NCBI RefSeq assembly: GCF_004217095.1
Contig: NZ_SHKO01000001.1
Location: forward strand, 1,972,234 to 2,036,233
From: Advenella incenata
GTDB lineage: Bacteria; Pseudomonadota; Gammaproteobacteria; Burkholderiales; Burkholderiaceae_B
Length of the DNA stretch: 64,000 nucleotides
Direction: 5' to 3'
Position numbers and translations under genes: made by a program. A model generated the notes under the pieces. That model did not search any database, had not been told where the DNA came from, and saw only the letters and a program-made list of their open reading frames with translations. Below are positions 33,041 through 43,760 of the stretch, in pieces; the stretch's first letter is position 1; each line of letters starts with the position of its first letter.

Positions 33041-35779
33041 TTAAATACGCAAAGCTTTGGAAACAATCTCGCTCACATTGCTGGACAGACCCTCGTGATC
33101 GCGGACCTGCTCAAGCGATGATTTCATTTGTGATTGCAGTGCAGGAGTATAGCGCGCCCAGTTATCCATGACACGCGCCAGACGCGATGCGACTTCAGGA
33201 TTGATGGCATCGAGCGCCAGCACGGCTTCGGTCCACAAGGCATAGCCGGAACCATCCTGGTTATGGAATCCTTGTGCATTGTTCATGCAGAACTGGAAGA
33301 TCAGGGAGCGGGCGCGATTGGGGTTGCGCAATGCAAATGCCGGATGCGCCATCAGCCCGCGGATTGTTTCCGTGCGGGTGTCGGCGGCAGTGGCCTGCAG
33401 GGCAAACCATTTGTCGATGACCAGCGGATTGTGCTGCCATTTCTCGTAGAAATCAACGATGGCTTCCTGGCGTTTATCCCCGTGGTGATAGTTGACGATG
33501 GCGCCAAGCGCACCCATGCAATCGGTCATGTTCTGCGCTGCCTGGTACTGGACCAGCGCTTGCTGGCATGCTGCCAGATCGCCTGCCGCCATGAGGTAGG
33601 CCAGTGCCAGATTTTTCAGACTGCGACGGCCGGCGCTGATCGGATCGGGGCTATAAGGCCCAGGCGTGTCGTTGCCCTGCAGGGTTGCGTTCCATTCGGA
33701 CGCAGCCGCTTTGCCCAGATTTTCCCGGACAGCGTGGCGGGCCTTGGCCAGCCATATCGGTTCTATCGGATCCATTTGCTCTGCCAGGAATTTTTCCGAA
33801 GGCAGTGTCAGCAGGCGGGCGCGATAACCGGCGTCCAGGCCTGCATCTTGCAGATTGTTCTTCCAGACTTGCACAAATGTCTCGGACAGGGCCGCTTGCT
33901 CACCTTTTTGCAGTGCTTCGGCAAGGCCCAGAATTTCGCGGGTTGCCAGCGCCTGGCCCGCTTCCCAGCGGGCAAATGGATTGGGATCAGACTGGGCCAG
34001 GACCGCCAGTTCCTCTGCTGTCCAGTCATAGTGCACAGTGACTGGCGCGGAAAAATCGCGCAACAGCGAAGGCACAGGCTTGGCGGCGATGCCGGTAAAG
34101 GTCCAGGACTGACTTTGCTCTGTGAGTTCAAGCAGGCGTGTGTGTTCGCCGGCCAGGTCGGGGGCAGCGTCGTGGCTCGCACTGTCGTTGATCTCGCTGA
34201 GCGCCAGCGGTTGTCCGTCAGCCGAGAGCAGACCGACAGCAAAGGGAATATGAAAAGGTTTTTTCACAAAATCCTTGCGGATTTTTTCAACCCCCACCAG
34301 CGGTGTTTGTTGCGACAGGGTCAAGGTCACCGTTTGCTGCCCTGCATCGTGGCTCATGGTCACCTGCACTCGCGGCGTGCCTGCCTGCGAATACCAGCGC
34401 CTGAAGACGGACAGATCGCGTTGCGGATGGGATTTTGTGTATACGTATTCCATGGCATTGACAAAATCATCGCAAGTGACGGCCTGCCCGTCATGGCGGC
34501 GGAAGTATTCGTCCATGCCATCGCGAAAACCGGGCGCGCCCAGCAGCGTGTGCTGCATGCGGATCACTTCGGCGCCTTTTTCATAAACGGTTGCGGTGTA
34601 GAAGTTGCCAATGGATTCGTAGCTGTCGGGACGGATGGGATGCGCCATGGGGCCTGCATCCTCGGGAAACTGACCGGCGCGCAATACGCTTACGTCGTCA
34701 ATGCGCTTGACCGCGCGGGCACTGGCGGCTGCCTGATCATCCAGGCCGGCGGCCATCATGTCGGCTGTAAATTCCTGATCGCGAAAGACGGTCAGGCCTT
34801 CCTTGAGGCTGAGCTGAAACCAGTCGCGGCAAGTGACGCGATTGCCGGTCCAGTTGTGAAAATATTCGTGACCGATCACGGCTTCGACGGCAGAAAAATT
34901 GGCATCGGTGGCGGTATCGGGATCGGCCAGCACATATCCGGAATTGAAAATGTTCAACCCCTTGTTTTCCATGGCGCCCATATTGAAGTCGCGCACGGCC
35001 ACAATCATGAAGCGATCCAGATCCAGTTCCAGGCCAAAGCGCTTTTCGTCCCAGACCAGGGAGCGCTCAAGCGAAGCCAGTGCCCATTCGGTCTTGTCGC
35101 GGCTTCCCTTGTCGCTGTATATCTGCAACAGCACGTCGCGGCCATTATGGGTTTTGACGGTTTTTTCGCGAACGTCGAAGTCGCCGGCGACCAGTGCGAA
35201 AAGATAACTGGGCTTATGAAAGGGATCATGCCAGACTGCCTGGTGGCGGCCGTCGGGAAGATCAGTGGACGACAGCAAATTGCCGTTGGACAGCAGATAG
35301 GGATATTTTTCCTTGTCGGCGGCGAGCGTGACGGTATAAATGCTCATCACGTCCGGGCGATCCGGGAAGTAGGTAATGCGGCGAAAGCCTTCGGCCTCGC
35401 ACTGAGTGAAAAAGCCGCTCCCCGACTTATACAAACCCATGAACAGGGAGTTGGCTGCCGGATCCAGTGTGGTGCATACACGCAGTTCAAATGAACCGGA
35501 CAGTTGCGCAATGACCAGTTGGTTCTGGTCCAATTCATAGGCGTCTGCGTCCAGCGCCTGGCCATTCAGATACAGGGCATCCAGGCTGATGTCTTCGGCG
35601 TTGAGCACCAGATCGGCCGGCGTCTTGTCTTTTGCGGTGAATGTCAGGGTAGAGGTGACGACAGTGCGGTTTTCGTCCAGGTCGAAATTGAGCGCCACCG
35701 CATCAAGCGTAAATGGATAGGGCTGATAGTCGCTGCGATAGACGGTTGGACTGGTTTCTTCGATCAATTCTGTAGGCAT
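33041..35779 (-). CDS. pepN: Aminopeptidase N (M1 family)
   Basis: A 912-residue zinc aminopeptidase that trims N-terminal residues from peptides in the cytosol. The exopeptidase motif GAMENKG and the zinc motif HEYFHNWTGNRVTCRDWFQ (HExxH with the distal Glu in LKEGLTVFRDQEF) are visible. The C-terminal helical superdomain fits E. coli PepN, which is about 870 residues long. The ATG at 35779 is chosen over a GTG three codons upstream. Paired with fbp downstream. Confidence 0.96.
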   Translation of the reverse strand: MPTELIEETSPTVYRSDYQPYPFTLDAVALNFDLDENRTVVTSTLTFTAKDKTPADLVLNAEDISLDALYLNGQALDADAYELDQNQLVIAQLSGSFELRVCTTLDPAANSLFMGLYKSGSGFFTQCEAEGFRRITYFPDRPDVMSIYTVTLAADKEKYPYLLSNGNLLSSTDLPDGRHQAVWHDPFHKPSYLFALVAGDFDVREKTVKTHNGRDVLLQIYSDKGSRDKTEWALASLERSLVWDEKRFGLELDLDRFMIVAVRDFNMGAMENKGLNIFNSGYVLADPDTATDANFSAVEAVIGHEYFHNWTGNRVTCRDWFQLSLKEGLTVFRDQEFTADMMAAGLDDQAAASARAVKRIDDVSVLRAGQFPEDAGPMAHPIRPDSYESIGNFYTATVYEKGAEVIRMQHTLLGAPGFRDGMDEYFRRHDGQAVTCDDFVNAMEYVYTKSHPQRDLSVFRRWYSQAGTPRVQVTMSHDAGQQTVTLTLSQQTPLVGVEKIRKDFVKKPFHIPFAVGLLSADGQPLALSEINDSASHDAAPDLAGEHTRLLELTEQSQSWTFTGIAAKPVPSLLRDFSAPVTVHYDWTAEELAVLAQSDPNPFARWEAGQALATREILGLAEALQKGEQAALSETFVQVWKNNLQDAGLDAGYRARLLTLPSEKFLAEQMDPIEPIWLAKARHAVRENLGKAAASEWNATLQGNDTPGPYSPDPISAGRRSLKNLALAYLMAAGDLAACQQALVQYQAAQNMTDCMGALGAIVNYHHGDKRQEAIVDFYEKWQHNPLVIDKWFALQATAADTRTETIRGLMAHPAFALRNPNRARSLIFQFCMNNAQGFHNQDGSGYALWTEAVLALDAINPEVASRLARVMDNWARYTPALQSQMKSSLEQVRDHEGLSSNVSEIVSKALRI

Positions 35780-36004
35780 GATGGTCACTGTGGTGCTGGT
35801 GAACGGAAAGTGAAATTGCGGTACAAACGGCAGGGTTCACTTGAAAAAAAGCGATTCGTAGCTATTTGTCCTAATTATAGGGGCTTGCCCTGAATTGGAA
35901 CCTTAAAAGACGTTTTGTGTCAAAATTGAAGTACAGTTTGCGGCGCGTGTCGGGCGCGGCAGGCCGTCTATGATATTGGCGTGTGATTGGCAGGAGAAAG
36001 AAGC

Positions 36005-38383: not shown

Positions 38384-38413
38384 GTGCCAATGAGCGAAAA
38401 CCTGTGCTAGGAT
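38384..38413 (+). promoter_or_regulatory. Candidate promoter for the aroG leader
   Basis: GTGCCA (38384-38389) and an extended -10, TGC-TAGGAT (38405-38413), are 18 bases apart. The expected start of transcription is at or within two bases of the leader ATG at 38421, which would make the leader peptide mRNA leaderless. Alternatively the AGGA inside the -10 is the ribosome site of a transcript begun further upstream. The two readings exclude each other. Confidence 0.4.
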
Positions 38414-38420
38414 TGCTCTT

Positions 38421-38477
38421 ATGAAACAAGTTAGCCACGTCTTTTTCTTTTTTTATTTTACATTTTCGACGCGATAG
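38421..38477 (+). CDS. Phenylalanine-rich leader peptide of aroG
   Basis: An 18-codon frame reading MKQVSHVFFFFYFTFSTR, with six Phe and one Tyr codon in a nine-residue stretch. This is the hallmark of a phe-type attenuation leader, similar in design to E. coli PheL, which controls pheA. It lies 55 bases upstream of a strong terminator and 170 upstream of aroG. When charged Phe-tRNA is short, a ribosome stalled on these codons should free the sequence after the stop codon. AGGA lies 8 bases before the ATG. Too short for routine gene callers. Confidence 0.82.
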   Translation: MKQVSHVFFFFYFTFSTR

Positions 38478-38543
38478 GCGGAGGAAAGGACGTTGCGTAC
38501 TTAGCGAAAGCAGAAACAAGCTACAAGACACCAAAAGGCCGCC
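38477..38543 (+). promoter_or_regulatory. Possible antiterminator pairing
   Basis: GGCGG at 38477-38481, directly after the leader stop codon, can pair with CCGCC at 38539-38543, which is the core of the terminator's left arm. A ribosome at the leader stop would cover the first partner and let the terminator form. A ribosome stalled at the early Phe codons would leave it free. The pairing is short and was judged by eye. Confidence 0.4.
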
Positions 38544-38570
38544 AGAATATCTGGTGGCCTTTTTTGTTTT
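38533..38570 (+). terminator. aroG attenuator terminator
   Basis: AAGGCCGCCAG (38535-38545) pairs with CTGGTGGCCTT (38551-38561), with one G-U pair, around a five-base loop. TTTTTTGTTTT follows. A classical intrinsic terminator in front of a gene rather than behind one, as expected for attenuation. Confidence 0.85.
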
Positions 38571-38645
38571 GGGCGATGCACTGCCTGGCTGGGCGAACTT
38601 ATAACCGATTCGATTGATTGATTAACGATATATCTGGAGTTTTCC

Positions 38646-39719
38646 GTGTCCTACAATACCGACGATTTACGTATCCGCGAAATTAAAGAGCTTAGCCCGC
38701 CGTCCCATCTGATGCGCGAATTTACCTGTTCCGCTCAGGTGTCCAGCCTGGTGCACGATACGCGCGAGGCAATCCATCGCATTTTGCATGCCAAAGATGA
38801 CCGGCTGGTTGTCATTATTGGCCCGTGCTCAATTCACGATCCGGCTGCGGCGCGCGAATATGTAAAGCGCCTGAAGGAACAGCGTGACCGCTTTGGCGAC
38901 GATCTGGAAATCGTCATGCGCGTGTATTTCGAAAAGCCCCGCACGACAGTGGGCTGGAAAGGCCTGATTAACGATCCGGATCTGGACGGCAGTTTCAATA
39001 TCAACAAGGGCGTGCGACTGGCGCGTGAATTGCTGCTGGAAGTCAATGAAAGCGGTGTGCCTGCGGGCTGCGAATTCCTGGATATGATCACTCCGCAATA
39101 TATTGCCGACCTGGTGTCCTGGGGCGCGATCGGTGCGCGTACGACAGAAAGCCAGGTGCACCGTGAACTGGCTTCGGGCCTGTCGTGCCCGGTCGGGTTC
39201 AAAAACGGGACCGACGGCAATATCAAAATTGCCATCGATGCCATCAATGCTGCGTCGCAGCCTCATCATTTTCTGTCGGTAACCAAGGGCGGCCATTCGG
39301 CAATCGTCTCTACCGTTGGTAATGACGATTGTCATGTCATTCTGCGCGGCGGCAAGGCGCCCAATTATGACGCCGAAAACATCAACCTGATGTCCGAGCA
39401 ATTGTCCAAGGCGGGTCTGGCCAGCCGTATCATGATCGATGCCAGCCATGCCAACAGCAACAAGAAATATGAGAATCAGCCGCAGGTGATCGACGATGTG
39501 GCCCAGCAGATCGAAACCGGCGACCACCGCATTTTCGGTGTCATGGTCGAGAGCCACCTGGTTGCTGGTCGTCAGGATCTCAAAGAAGGTGTCGAACTCA
39601 CTTACGGGCAGAGTATTACGGACGGCTGCATCGGCTGGGACGCATCGGTCCAGGTGCTGGAGCGTCTGGCCCAGGCAGTGCGTACGCGCCGTGAGCAGAA
39701 AACAGATATCAACACCTGA
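38646..39719 (+). CDS. aroG: 3-Deoxy-7-phosphoheptulonate synthase (type I)
   Basis: A 357-residue DAHP synthase that joins PEP and erythrose 4-phosphate in the first step of aromatic amino acid synthesis. The AroFGH family pattern is clear: VIIGPCSIHDPAAA, MRVYFEKPRTTVGWKGLINDP, DMITPQYIADLVSWGAIGARTTESQ, SGLSCPVGFKNGTDG and DASHANSNKK. The GTG start has GGAG 7 bases upstream. The Phe-rich leader points to the Phe-regulated isoenzyme, so I use aroG; aroF or aroH cannot be fully excluded. A hairpin follows at 39780-39802. Confidence 0.93.
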   Translation: MSYNTDDLRIREIKELSPPSHLMREFTCSAQVSSLVHDTREAIHRILHAKDDRLVVIIGPCSIHDPAAAREYVKRLKEQRDRFGDDLEIVMRVYFEKPRTTVGWKGLINDPDLDGSFNINKGVRLARELLLEVNESGVPAGCEFLDMITPQYIADLVSWGAIGARTTESQVHRELASGLSCPVGFKNGTDGNIKIAIDAINAASQPHHFLSVTKGGHSAIVSTVGNDDCHVILRGGKAPNYDAENINLMSEQLSKAGLASRIMIDASHANSNKKYENQPQVIDDVAQQIETGDHRIFGVMVESHLVAGRQDLKEGVELTYGQSITDGCIGWDASVQVLERLAQAVRTRREQKTDINT

Positions 39720-39916: not shown

Positions 39917-41422
39917 ATGGATGTGAGTGCGCAGCTGCGACATGCGCCGCAGGACGCTGAAAGCGGACCGGATTTTTCTGAATTGATCGCTCAATTGCAT
40001 CGCGGTTTGCCGGCGCATTGTGTGCTATCCCGTGTTGAAGAAAAAAAACCGTTTGAATGTGATGGGCTGACGCTTTTCAAGGAAATGCCAGGCGTGGTTG
40101 TGCTTCCGGAAAACGAGGAGCAAATCATTCACGTTCTGAAAACCTGTAAAAAAATGGGGGTGCCTGTGGTGCCGCGTGGCGCAGGTACAGGCCTGTCGGG
40201 CGGCGCGACGCCGCATTCGCAGGGTGTGTTGCTGGGCGTATCCAAACTCAACAAAATCAGACATATCGACGCGCAGGCAGCGACCGCTATCGTTGAACCA
40301 GGCGTGCGCAATCTGGCGGTGTCCGAGGCGGCTGCAGCATATGGTCTGTATTATGCGCCTGACCCATCCAGTCAGATTGCCTGTTCAATCGGCGGCAATA
40401 TTGCCGAGAATGCGGGTGGTGTGCATTGCCTTAAATATGGACTGACGGTTCATAATGTCATCCGCCTGCGGATTGTGACGATTGATGGCGACATTGTCGA
40501 ATTGGGCGCTGACGCACCCGACGCACCGGGTCTGAATCTGCTGCCGGTCTTCATCGGTTCGGAAGGCATGCTGGGCATTGTGACCGAAGTCAAGGTCAAA
40601 CTCATTCCCAAGCCGCAACTGGCTCGCGTCATCATGGCAAGCTTCGCTTCTGTTGAGGCGGCGGGCGAGGCGGTCAAGAATATTATCGGATCGGGCATCA
40701 TTCCTGCCGGTCTTGAAATGATGGACAAGCGCGCAACCCGCATGGTCGAGCCCTTTGTGAATGCCGGTTATGACCTGGATGCCGAGGCGATTCTGCTGTG
40801 TGAATCGGACGGCACCGAGGCCGAGGTTGAAGACGAAATCGTACGCATGGAAAAAGTATTTTCCGATTGCGGTGCAACGCGTTTGCAAACGTCCAGTTCC
40901 GAAGAGGAACGCTTGCGTTTCTGGGCCGGCCGCAAGAATGCATTTCCTGCCGCCGGCCGCATATCACCTGATTATTACTGCATGGACGGCACGATTCCCA
41001 AAAGCCAGTTGGCCTATGTGCTCAATGAAATGGTGAAGATGGAAGCGAAGTATCAATTGGGTTGCGCCAATGTGTTCCATGCGGGCGATGGCAATTTGCA
41101 TCCACTGATTTTGTTCGATGCGAACGATCCGGACTCAGTGCGACGCGCTGAAGATTTCGGCGCCGATATCCTGGAGCTGTGCATCAAGGTGGGCGGTACG
41201 GTTACCGGTGAGCATGGCGTGGGTCTGGAGAAAATCAACCAGATGTGTTCGCAGTTTACTCGCGAAGAACTCGATGCCTTCACCGCGCTGAAAAAAGCGT
41301 TCGACCCCGATATGTTGCTCAATCCGACCAAGCAGATTCCGACACTGAATCGTTGCGCCGAATATGGTCGCATGCATGTGCACGGCGGTCAGATCGCTTT
41401 TCCCGATATCGAACGTTTCTAA
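39917..41422 (+). CDS. glcD: Glycolate oxidase subunit GlcD (FAD-linked)
   Basis: A 501-residue FAD-binding subunit oxidising glycolate (or D-lactate) to glyoxylate. FAD contacts are in VPVVPRGAGTGLSGGATPH and DPSSQIACSIGGNIAENAGG, then GLTVHNV and VGTEG-like GSEGMLGIVTEVKVKL. The C-terminal domain has NVFHAGDGNLHPLILFD and GGTVTGEHGVGLEK. First gene of glcDEF; glcE starts 7 bases after the stop. No glcC regulator or glcG is adjacent. Confidence 0.95.
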   Translation: MDVSAQLRHAPQDAESGPDFSELIAQLHRGLPAHCVLSRVEEKKPFECDGLTLFKEMPGVVVLPENEEQIIHVLKTCKKMGVPVVPRGAGTGLSGGATPHSQGVLLGVSKLNKIRHIDAQAATAIVEPGVRNLAVSEAAAAYGLYYAPDPSSQIACSIGGNIAENAGGVHCLKYGLTVHNVIRLRIVTIDGDIVELGADAPDAPGLNLLPVFIGSEGMLGIVTEVKVKLIPKPQLARVIMASFASVEAAGEAVKNIIGSGIIPAGLEMMDKRATRMVEPFVNAGYDLDAEAILLCESDGTEAEVEDEIVRMEKVFSDCGATRLQTSSSEEERLRFWAGRKNAFPAAGRISPDYYCMDGTIPKSQLAYVLNEMVKMEAKYQLGCANVFHAGDGNLHPLILFDANDPDSVRRAEDFGADILELCIKVGGTVTGEHGVGLEKINQMCSQFTREELDAFTALKKAFDPDMLLNPTKQIPTLNRCAEYGRMHVHGGQIAFPDIERF

Positions 41423-41429
41423 ACATCTT

Positions 41430-42527
41430 ATGAAATTCATTAAAGAAGATCTGGCAGAACAGGTTGCAGCCGCTGTGGCAGGCCGCAAGCAGATTGTCAT
41501 TCGCGGTGGCGGCACCAAAAGCTTCTACGGCAACGCGATTGCCGAAACCGAACAATTGGTGGAACTGGACGTGACACCGTACACCGGGATCAGCAGTTAT
41601 GAACCGTCAGAGCTGGTCATGACTGCCCGTTGCGGTACGCCGCTGCGCGACATCGAAGCGGCACTGGATCAGGAGAATCAACGCCTGGCATGGGAGCCGC
41701 CGCATTTTGGCCAGCAGGCAACCATTGGCGGGGCCATTGCCACAGGGCTGGCCGGTCCTGGACGCATGGCTGCCGGCGGAGCCAGTGACTTTGTGCTGGG
41801 CACCGTGTTGCTCAATGCAGAAGGGCAGCAATTGCATTTTGGCGGCACGGTGATGAAGAATGTGGCCGGCTACGATATGTCGCGGCTGCTCACCGGATCC
41901 ATGGGCGTGTTCGGCCCTATTCTGGAAGTCTCGTTCAAGGTGCTGCCCAAGCCGATTTGCGAAGTCACACTGCAGCGGCAATGTACCCTGAAGGAAGCGT
42001 TCGAATGCTTCCGCCAGTGGCAGGCCAAGGCGCTGGGTATCAGTGCCTCGGCCTGGATCCCGGAGGGCGATACACAGCAAGGCGTGCTCTATCTGCGCGT
42101 ATCCGGTGCGCAGCCTGCTGTCAAACAGGCATGCGGCGTCCTGGGCGGCGAGCGGGTAGATGAGCAGACGGCTAAAGATTTATGGCTGTCGCTCAGAGAG
42201 CATACTCATCCGTTTTTTGGTGATACTGTCTGGCGCGTATCGGTGCCGCCTTTGGCCGACACGGTGAACGAATCGGTGCCGCTACTGGAGTGGGGCGGCG
42301 CGCAGCGCTGGCTGCGACAGGTCAGCGATGTGACCAACATTCGTCACGCCGCTGCGCAACGCGGTGGTCATGCGACATTGTTTCGCGCCGGCGCAGGTGT
42401 CAGTCAGCCCGTCGATGGTGTGTTCCAGCCGCTCAGCAGCGGGATTGCCGCCATTACCCGCCGTCTCAAGAGCAATCTTGACCCGTTGGGCACATTTTAC
42501 TCAGGCCGGTTACTCAGGAATATCTAA
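41430..42527 (+). CDS. glcE: Glycolate oxidase subunit GlcE (FAD-binding)
   Basis: A 365-residue second FAD-binding subunit. It starts MKFIKEDLAEQVAAAVAGRK, has the shortened FAD motif IVIRGGGTKSFYG, then PPHFGQQATIGGAIATGLAGPGR and the KNVAGYDMSRLLTGSMG stretch typical of GlcE. The start is set by family alignment; a longer frame runs back into glcD. glcF begins 6 bases after the stop. Confidence 0.94.
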   Translation: MKFIKEDLAEQVAAAVAGRKQIVIRGGGTKSFYGNAIAETEQLVELDVTPYTGISSYEPSELVMTARCGTPLRDIEAALDQENQRLAWEPPHFGQQATIGGAIATGLAGPGRMAAGGASDFVLGTVLLNAEGQQLHFGGTVMKNVAGYDMSRLLTGSMGVFGPILEVSFKVLPKPICEVTLQRQCTLKEAFECFRQWQAKALGISASAWIPEGDTQQGVLYLRVSGAQPAVKQACGVLGGERVDEQTAKDLWLSLREHTHPFFGDTVWRVSVPPLADTVNESVPLLEWGGAQRWLRQVSDVTNIRHAAAQRGGHATLFRAGAGVSQPVDGVFQPLSSGIAAITRRLKSNLDPLGTFYSGRLLRNI

Positions 42528-42533
42528 CGTATC

Positions 42534-43760
42534 ATGCAGACCAATCTTGCCGACTGGGCAAAAAACAGCAGCTATGGCGAAGAAGTGGATGCAATCTTGC
42601 GCAAATGCGTGCATTGCGGCTTCTGTTCTGCCACCTGTCCCAGCTATCAGATACTTGGCGATGAGCGCGACAGTCCGCGTGGGCGCATTTACCTGATCAA
42701 GGAAATCGTCGAAGGCAAGGAGCCCACCAGCATTACCCAGAAGCACCTGGACCAGTGCCTTACTTGCCACAACTGCGAAACCACTTGTCCGTCGGGTGTG
42801 CAGTACGGCCATCTGGTTGATATCGGCCGCGAACTGGTCGCAGAACGCGTTACCCGTACGCCGACCGACCGTTTTCGGCGCACCCTGCTGGCGGCCGGGC
42901 TGAACTCCCAAGCCTTTGCACCTGCGGTGAAACTGGGCCGCATGTTGCGCTCCTTCATGCCGGCCACACTGGCGGCCAAGCTGCCGGAGGCCCGCCCGGC
43001 CGGGGCGCTGCCGGTCGGCCGCCACCAACGGCAGGTGCTGGTGCCGCTGGGGTGTGTTCAGCCTGCGCTGATGCCTTCGATTGATGCGGCGACCATAAGG
43101 GTGCTGGATGCCGCGGGAATTTCATCTGTGGATGTCAGTCGCAATACATGTTGCGGCGCCGTCAATTTTCACCTGGATAAAGTAAACAGCAGCATCGCCC
43201 AGATGAAAAGCAATATCGACGCCTGGGTGCCGTTGCTGGAGTCTGGCCAGGTAGAGGCCGTCATCATGAACGCGTCCGGTTGCGGTGCGTTCGTCAAAGA
43301 GTATCCATTTTATCTTCGTAACGAACCGGGGTATGTGGAAAAAGCGCGCTACCTGGTTCAGCATGTAAAGGATATTGCCGAAGTGATTGCGCCCGAAGCG
43401 GCGACACTGAAGGCCAAATTCAAAAAACCGCTACCGGCCTCAGCCGCATTTCATCCACCCTGTACGCTTCAACACTGGCAGGGACTGCGCCCACTGACCG
43501 AGTCGTTACTGGCAGATCTGGGATTTGACCTCAAGGCCTTTGGCGAGGCCAATCTGTGTTGCGGTTCTGCAGGGACGTATTCGGTGCTTCAGCCGGAAAT
43601 TGCTACTGGCCTGCGCGATCGCAAGCTGGAAGCCATCGGCAAGACCTCGCCTGAAGTCATCATTACCTCCAATATGGGCTGTATGTCCCATTTGCAAACC
43701 GGAACGCAGACACCGGTACGCCATTGGGTCGAAGTGGTTGATGCTGCCTTAAGTGCTTAG
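42534..43760 (+). CDS. glcF: Glycolate oxidase iron-sulfur subunit GlcF
   Basis: A 408-residue subunit passing electrons from GlcD/E to the quinone pool. Two 4Fe-4S motifs are near the N-terminus: CVHCGFCSATCPSYQ and CLTCHNCETTCPSGV. Two CCG domains follow (SRNTCCGAVNFH and EANLCCGSAGTYS), as in heterodisulfide-reductase-type proteins. Completes the glcDEF operon. Confidence 0.96.
   Translation: MQTNLADWAKNSSYGEEVDAILRKCVHCGFCSATCPSYQILGDERDSPRGRIYLIKEIVEGKEPTSITQKHLDQCLTCHNCETTCPSGVQYGHLVDIGRELVAERVTRTPTDRFRRTLLAAGLNSQAFAPAVKLGRMLRSFMPATLAAKLPEARPAGALPVGRHQRQVLVPLGCVQPALMPSIDAATIRVLDAAGISSVDVSRNTCCGAVNFHLDKVNSSIAQMKSNIDAWVPLLESGQVEAVIMNASGCGAFVKEYPFYLRNEPGYVEKARYLVQHVKDIAEVIAPEAATLKAKFKKPLPASAAFHPPCTLQHWQGLRPLTESLLADLGFDLKAFGEANLCCGSAGTYSVLQPEIATGLRDRKLEAIGKTSPEVIITSNMGCMSHLQTGTQTPVRHWVEVVDAALSA

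Follow-up and report, generated by a model that had tools for sequence, protein, structure and literature searches.

How is entry into aromatic amino acid synthesis governed in a bacterium whose gene for that step is preceded by a run of phenylalanine codons and a terminator? In Escherichia coli the first step of aromatic synthesis is controlled by TyrR and by feedback. The stretch of Advenella incenata DNA analysed here (64,000 nucleotides, referred to as the window) holds a DAHP synthase gene, aroG, and a preliminary description of it proposed that a Phe-rich attenuator controls that gene. Anatomy and conservation support this proposal, and we put the probability that the element is a ribosome-mediated transcription attenuator of aroG at about 0.92, the regulation itself being predicted from sequence. 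The features on which this reading is built are as follows.

38403..38413, + strand: predicted extended -10 element TGTGCTAGGAT, whose end lies 7 nt upstream of the leader ATG; transcription is expected to begin near 38420
38421..38477, + strand: leader peptide ORF MKQVSHVFFFFYFTFSTR, stop TAG at 38475-38477; similar aromatic-rich leaders occur in the genus, the family and beyond
38437..38457, + strand: strand 1, the Phe codons and the bases just 5' of them; would pair with strand 2 if no ribosome covers it
38473..38493, + strand: strand 2, with GGCGG at 38477-38481, beginning just before the stop; its partner would be strand 1 (hairpin 1:2) or strand 3 (antiterminator)
38533..38569, + strand: intrinsic terminator (3:4) with T tail; stem 38533-38563, 14 pairs
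38539..38543, + strand: strand 3 core, CCGCC, which can pair with the GGCGG of strand 2 and belongs to the 5' arm of the terminator
38646..39719, + strand: aroG, class I DAHP synthase, GTG start; NCBIfam AroG match above cut-off

Anatomy of the locus

An attenuator of this kind is recognised by a short ORF with many codons for products of the pathway and by an intrinsic terminator between leader and structural gene, and both are present here. The leader ORF has 18 codons before its stop (ATG AAA CAA GTT AGC CAC GTC TTT TTC TTT TTT TAT TTT ACA TTT TCG ACG CGA TAG), six of them for Phe, one for Tyr and none for Trp. A scan of both strands of the window returned eight short frames with at least five aromatic residues in eight (nested starts counted apart), and of these only 38421-38477 is followed by a terminator, whose stem ends 82 nt before the aroG start. 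Folding of the RNA from 38421 to 38575 yields -58.4 kcal/mol (z -6.6 against shuffles) in a structure where the Phe codons pair with the strand that follows the stop, and the part downstream of strand 2 has a z of -5.4. The 18-residue frame with its six Phe codons, the complementary strand after the stop and the strong terminator before the DAHP synthase gene, all claimed in the preliminary description, are thus found where it placed them, and its bounds for the element (38384-38646) are about right; the antiterminator and the -10-like box by the leader ATG were left undescribed there.

The antiterminator of the query is weak (5 bp): pairing of strands 2 and 3 comprises a GC-rich core of five pairs out of nine, with a duplex energy of -11.1 kcal/mol against -19.9 in relatives such as L011 and L027, and the stretch that holds strands 2 and 3 and omits strand 4 folds no better than its shuffles (z -0.63, 43 of 200 as good). 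The stop codon TAG sits at the start of strand 2, on the site of a TGG or ATG in L007-L010; a ribosome that has reached this codon would mask GGCGG, in keeping with termination under plentiful Phe.

The structural gene belongs to the pathway of the amino acids that would be sensed, being AroG by NCBIfam in the query and a DAHP synthase at all 61 of the strong matches described below. Within its own genome there is one AroG-type match and no class II DAHP synthase, and a second PF00793 match is KDO-8-phosphate synthase; the attenuator precedes the only DAHP synthase found in that genome. Elsewhere in the window, 39917-43760 holds, after aroG, a glcD-like gene (NCBIfam GlcD is its best match, below cut-off). 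The two ORFs after it are putative glcE and glcF, judged by position and sequence. At 33134-35494 (+) a 786-aa open frame lies opposite a 915-aa minus-strand ORF (33041-35788) and is likely a shadow frame.

Conservation and distribution

Conservation was assessed at 110 aroG loci, comprising 10 from the genus, 20 more from the family and 80 named loci, which were best-scoring matches and not a random draw: the family loci are the best 30 of 259 family genomes with a match and the named loci the best 80 of at least 592 candidates. The ORF scan, which was limited to frames that start with ATG, are 9-45 residues long and contain at least four aromatic residues in a stretch of eight, and which required an intrinsic terminator 60-200 nt downstream, found such a leader in 82 of these 110 best-scoring loci. 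Two further loci missed by the scan, L044 and L073, match the covariance model R1 before aroG and raise the count to 84 of 110. All 10 genomes of the genus carry the leader, and carriers include Alcaligenaceae, Burkholderiaceae, Oxalobacteraceae, Xanthomonadales, Devosia and Bradyrhizobium, with peptides such as MSAKFYFYFFWHLRPLADREG... (Caballeronia), MNANRSFYFWYYGFPMPLAEEGVRSP (Xanthomonas), MITVATSYFWYFSYDSSLAAGGSRSI (Bradyrhizobium) and MNLRAAYSYWYFTTGSRWQPKGRV (Devosia). The remaining 26 of the 110 have neither a leader ORF nor an R1 match before aroG; among them are six enterobacterial loci, Photobacterium, several Rhodocyclales and one locus (L095) with just 49 upstream bases, too few to judge. 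A Phe run lacking conservation in relatives, the result named beforehand as speaking against an attenuator, did not occur. The preliminary description had also considered a phe leader before aroG unusual, a view that has to be given up: the element has a wide distribution in Burkholderiales, Xanthomonadales and some Alphaproteobacteria.

Searches of whole genomes with R1 extend this picture. Within the family, 216 of 268 genomes match at E<=0.01 (205 at E<=1e-5) and 52 have no match at E<=0.01. At 1e-5 the model matches 47 of 200 genomes from the order, 45 of 349 from the phylum and 15 of 81 from the order of genome G432, in samples that overlap and with stricter filters in the larger scans that lose weak matches. 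In the class scan 75 of 369 genomes match at E<=0.01, of which 7 reach 1e-5, and many of the weak matches span only the terminator end of the model; the query's own genome has one match at E<=0.01. Of 84 R1-anchored loci that were fetched, the 61 at E<=1e-5 (a set that includes the query's own locus and possibly other training species, and so is not fully independent of the model) all lie upstream of and adjoin a DAHP synthase gene, as do none of the 23 weaker matches. In 58 of these 61 there is an ATG frame in which four or more of eight residues are aromatic, and in the other three (L114, L164, L166) an aromatic-rich frame can be read from GTG in the printed letters.

Two departures from the general pattern were seen. 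The locus of Candidatus Burkholderia humilis (L044:1317-1454) scores 91 bits, yet the ORF scan gave no leader of usual length there, and by reading of the alignment its frame no longer follows that of its relatives beyond the aromatic codons. No R1 match was obtained in family members with small genomes, namely L021 (G077; 2.0 Mb) and eight of genus g21 (0.7-0.8 Mb); L021 has the end of tldD a short distance upstream of aroG and lacks a leader in the gap.

The predicted antiterminator across relatives

Alignment A1, model R1 and all pair counts use 52 rows, obtained by thinning the 82 leader regions by shared words to 53 and leaving out L076, whose strand 3 is divergent. RNAalifold on the 53 rows displayed the terminator alone, and since both 2:3 and 1:2 are alternatives to that terminator, 2:3 was tested explicitly. 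Three blocks of A1 hardly vary: a GGCGG that follows the aromatic codons, the CCGCC in the 5' arm of the terminator, and GGCGG plus T in its 3' arm. Over nine bases CGCUGGCGG, the consensus at columns 65-73, is complementary to CCGCCAGCG of the terminator arm (columns 148-156). The last two bases of this partner (C in 39 of 52 rows, G in 24 of 52) fall within the loop of the terminator, and the modelled stem therefore does not account for their conservation.

Pairing of 2:3 holds in 83.7% of cells, against 80.3% in shuffled and at most 56.7% in slid alignments, and its covariation reaches 0.102, a value that none of 500 shuffles attains (0.062) and that compares with at most 0.039 when slid, the shuffles in both cases not removing relatedness. 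Strand 2 also pairs better with strand 3 of its own row than when rows are permuted (0 of 500 permutations as good). Columns 66-68 contain double changes that preserve pairing, in 6, 1 and 5 cells. Pairs of 2:3 changed on both sides number 3 against 2.8 in shuffles (314 of 500), which is no excess, further pair types give a weak signal (39 of 500 shuffles), and a slide by one column yields as many double-changed cells (13 against 12 for 2:3). With upstream RNA omitted and strand 4 not yet made, as behind a stalled ribosome, 2:3 forms at P>0.5 in 49 of the 52 rows, the query included and L061, L067 and L080 excepted. At equilibrium it outcompetes 3:4 in only 7 of 52 rows, the query not among them, and an equilibrium switch was for this reason rejected in favour of a kinetic one. 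A single strand 1 common to all rows was sought and not found, the partners of GGCGG differing between rows and clades. Across the family, by sequence, antiterminator 2:3 and protector 1:2 are mutually exclusive; in the query 1:2 is seen in the predicted fold.

Aromatic codons and specificity

Among 140 leaders, Phe, Tyr and Trp account for 15.0, 9.6 and 2.6% of codons, against 1.9, 1.8 and 0.9% in aroG of the same loci; because leaders were partly chosen for aromatic density, that choice contributes to how large the excess is, though not to the split between the three. Phe is written as TTT in 423 of 537 leader cases against 167 of 919 in aroG, where TTC prevails (752 of 919). Slow wobble decoding, weak structure and pairing with strand 2 are candidate reasons for this bias.

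The preliminary description spoke of a phenylalanine attenuator. Phe does dominate in this genus, and the conserved property is an aromatic run of Phe, Tyr and often Trp. A refinement compatible with attenuation would have the element respond to Phe, Tyr and Trp alike and not to Phe alone, in this genus as well. Tyr occurs somewhere in 138 of the 140 peptides and Trp in 84, and the single DAHP synthase of the query must serve all three amino acids; against this, the query leader has a single Tyr codon alongside six for Phe and lacks Trp, and the Phe-Tyr-Phe leader of Corynebacterium glutamicum, in the portion of the account drawn on here, answers to Phe and not to Tyr (PMC11802643). We regard this refinement as possible and, for this genus, rather doubtful.

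Predicted promoter and start of the leader

Promoter counts cover 107 of the 140 leaders, namely those left after thinning and a requirement for 50 upstream bases. TA at -15 to -12, often as TGNTA, occurs in 71 of these 107 non-redundant leaders; the other 6-nt windows examined have a TA in 6 to 28 of 107. A Shine-Dalgarno-like 4-mer precedes 12 of 107 leader starts (95 are without one), against 53 of 65 aroG starts. The AGGA at -12 to -9 of the query was considered as a Shine-Dalgarno sequence and set aside, as it overlaps the -10-like box and so few leaders have any such 4-mer. Given the placement of TA and the scarcity of Shine-Dalgarno sequences, many leaders are probably leaderless or nearly so. 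Leaders of Bradyrhizobium (L091) and Devosia (L094) share the order GTGACA, 17 nt, a -10-like hexamer, 7 nt, ATG; in Burkholderia and Oxalobacteraceae the -10-like box lies, by eye, farther from the ATG, and leaders there seem to have a longer 5' end.

A model of the switch and its alternatives

Transcription start, leader translation, effector and switching, as we infer them, would combine as follows. RNA polymerase would start at the leader ATG or a few bases before it, with a ribosome translating the leader behind the polymerase. When charged tRNA-Phe is plentiful, the ribosome would reach the stop and cover or pass strand 2, leaving 3:4 to pair and transcription to end at about 38563-38569. 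When charged tRNA-Phe is scarce, the ribosome would stall in the aromatic codons and cover strand 1, and the freed strand 2 would pair with strand 3 before strand 4 is made, so that no terminator forms and aroG is transcribed. Were the leader not translated at all, hairpin 1:2 and then the terminator would be expected. In relatives, tRNA-Tyr and tRNA-Trp are probably sensed too.

The least probable of the readings considered, and a very improbable one, is that the terminator merely ends the tldD transcript, that the Phe-rich frame arises by chance from a T-rich sequence and that aroG has its own promoter downstream. It draws on the presence of tldD upstream in the query, where terminator-like sites near the end of tldD are weaker (5-6 pairs), and on the fact that a T-rich run alone could yield Phe codons. 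Within flanks of at most 1500 bases, some shorter, only 52 of 145 leader loci showed tldD, however, which ties the element to aroG and not to its upstream neighbour, and four fetched loci have tldD and no leader; moreover, the run keeps its aromatic identity through Tyr and Trp codons and synonymous changes, which would not be expected of a mere run of T.

Improbable to nearly the same degree is a leader peptide or terminated RNA that acts in trans, in the manner of peTrpL and rnTrpL of Sinorhizobium, with attenuation secondary or lost in this genus. Trans-acting products of trp leaders have precedent (PMC10117765, PMC7298713), the C-terminal residues PLAEEG are conserved in many relatives, and the weakness of the query antiterminator would fit. 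Those residues, however, follow strand 2 at the RNA level, the query frame stopping there while GGCGG stays; the peptides of L063 and L067 differ after the aromatic run, and the invariable adjacency of the fetched strong matches to a DAHP synthase also speaks against action in trans.

Evolution and significance

On an AroG tree of 110 rows (midpoint root, some deep forks open) the leader is clustered, with 7 changes against 23.8 in shuffles, a clustering to which near-copies add. The rows from Xanthomonadales and Alphaproteobacteria fall together in a single group of 19 (98/94) in which every row has the leader; this group nests inside one with Alcaligenaceae (96/91), where 50 of 51 have it. 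The easiest reading of the alphaproteobacterial leaders is that aroG may have been transferred together with its leader.

A bolder synthesis, to which we give an even chance, is that one near-leaderless, Shine-Dalgarno-free RNA device senses how far several aromatic tRNAs are charged (those for Phe and Tyr and, in many lineages, for Trp), gates entry into the shikimate pathway in Burkholderiales, Xanthomonadales and some Alphaproteobacteria, and travels with aroG between classes, its codon mix retuned by lineage. An attenuator so widespread would control the first aromatic step in many beta-, gamma- and some alphaproteobacteria. The points of interest are the mixed aromatic codons, the predicted near-leaderless start and the spread with aroG. 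The 52-row alignment and covariance model are ready as a family for RNA databases, with short ORFs to annotate, and the natural series of Phe/Tyr/Trp codon mixes offers material on how attenuators set their amino-acid specificity.

Comparison with known systems

At gathering score, Rfam returned no family in the window or in 20 loci, 19 of them with a leader. The sole informative match below threshold was Phe_leader (RF01859) at 38424-38567, with 28.8 bits and E 0.0069; membership was rejected, as the gathering score is 55. We take RF01859 to comprise the enterobacterial pheA and pheST leaders. It is alike in being a family of Phe leader peptides, and the query would work like a classical Phe attenuator; it differs in that the gene here is aroG and that relatives of the query mix aromatic codons.

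In the open-access literature searched, as far as its accessible text goes, no description of an aroG leader family was found, and Merino's database of predicted attenuators (cited in PMC1173090) may list some of the sites; further background is given in PMC1173090, PMC2965389 and PMC4117421. By these partial sources, attenuation of DAHP synthase is already on record in Corynebacterium and proposed in Acholeplasma, and the present broad family is new. In C. glutamicum, aroR precedes aroF, and stalling on its leader under Phe limitation is reported to raise transcription of the aroF operon (Neshat et al. 2014, as told in PMC11802643; the aroF leader also in PMC4046766). As described in those excerpts, aroR shares with the present leaders a short peptide before a DAHP synthase; it is actinobacterial, whereas the leaders described here have a longer aromatic run and the CGCUGGCGG strand. 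The uORFC-13-1 motif before aroF of Acholeplasma, again compared by its description, has a candidate uORF with at least one Phe codon, an apparent terminator and a DAHP synthase downstream, and in the section available is reported from Acholeplasma and environmental sequences only (PMC8632094). Finally, trpL of Sinorhizobium meliloti is, in the part of the source used, a leader peptide made from an RNA that is leaderless, with the AUG at its very beginning, and it controls trpE through Trp codons (PMC10117765); target and codons differ from those of the present leaders, whose leaderless start is a prediction.
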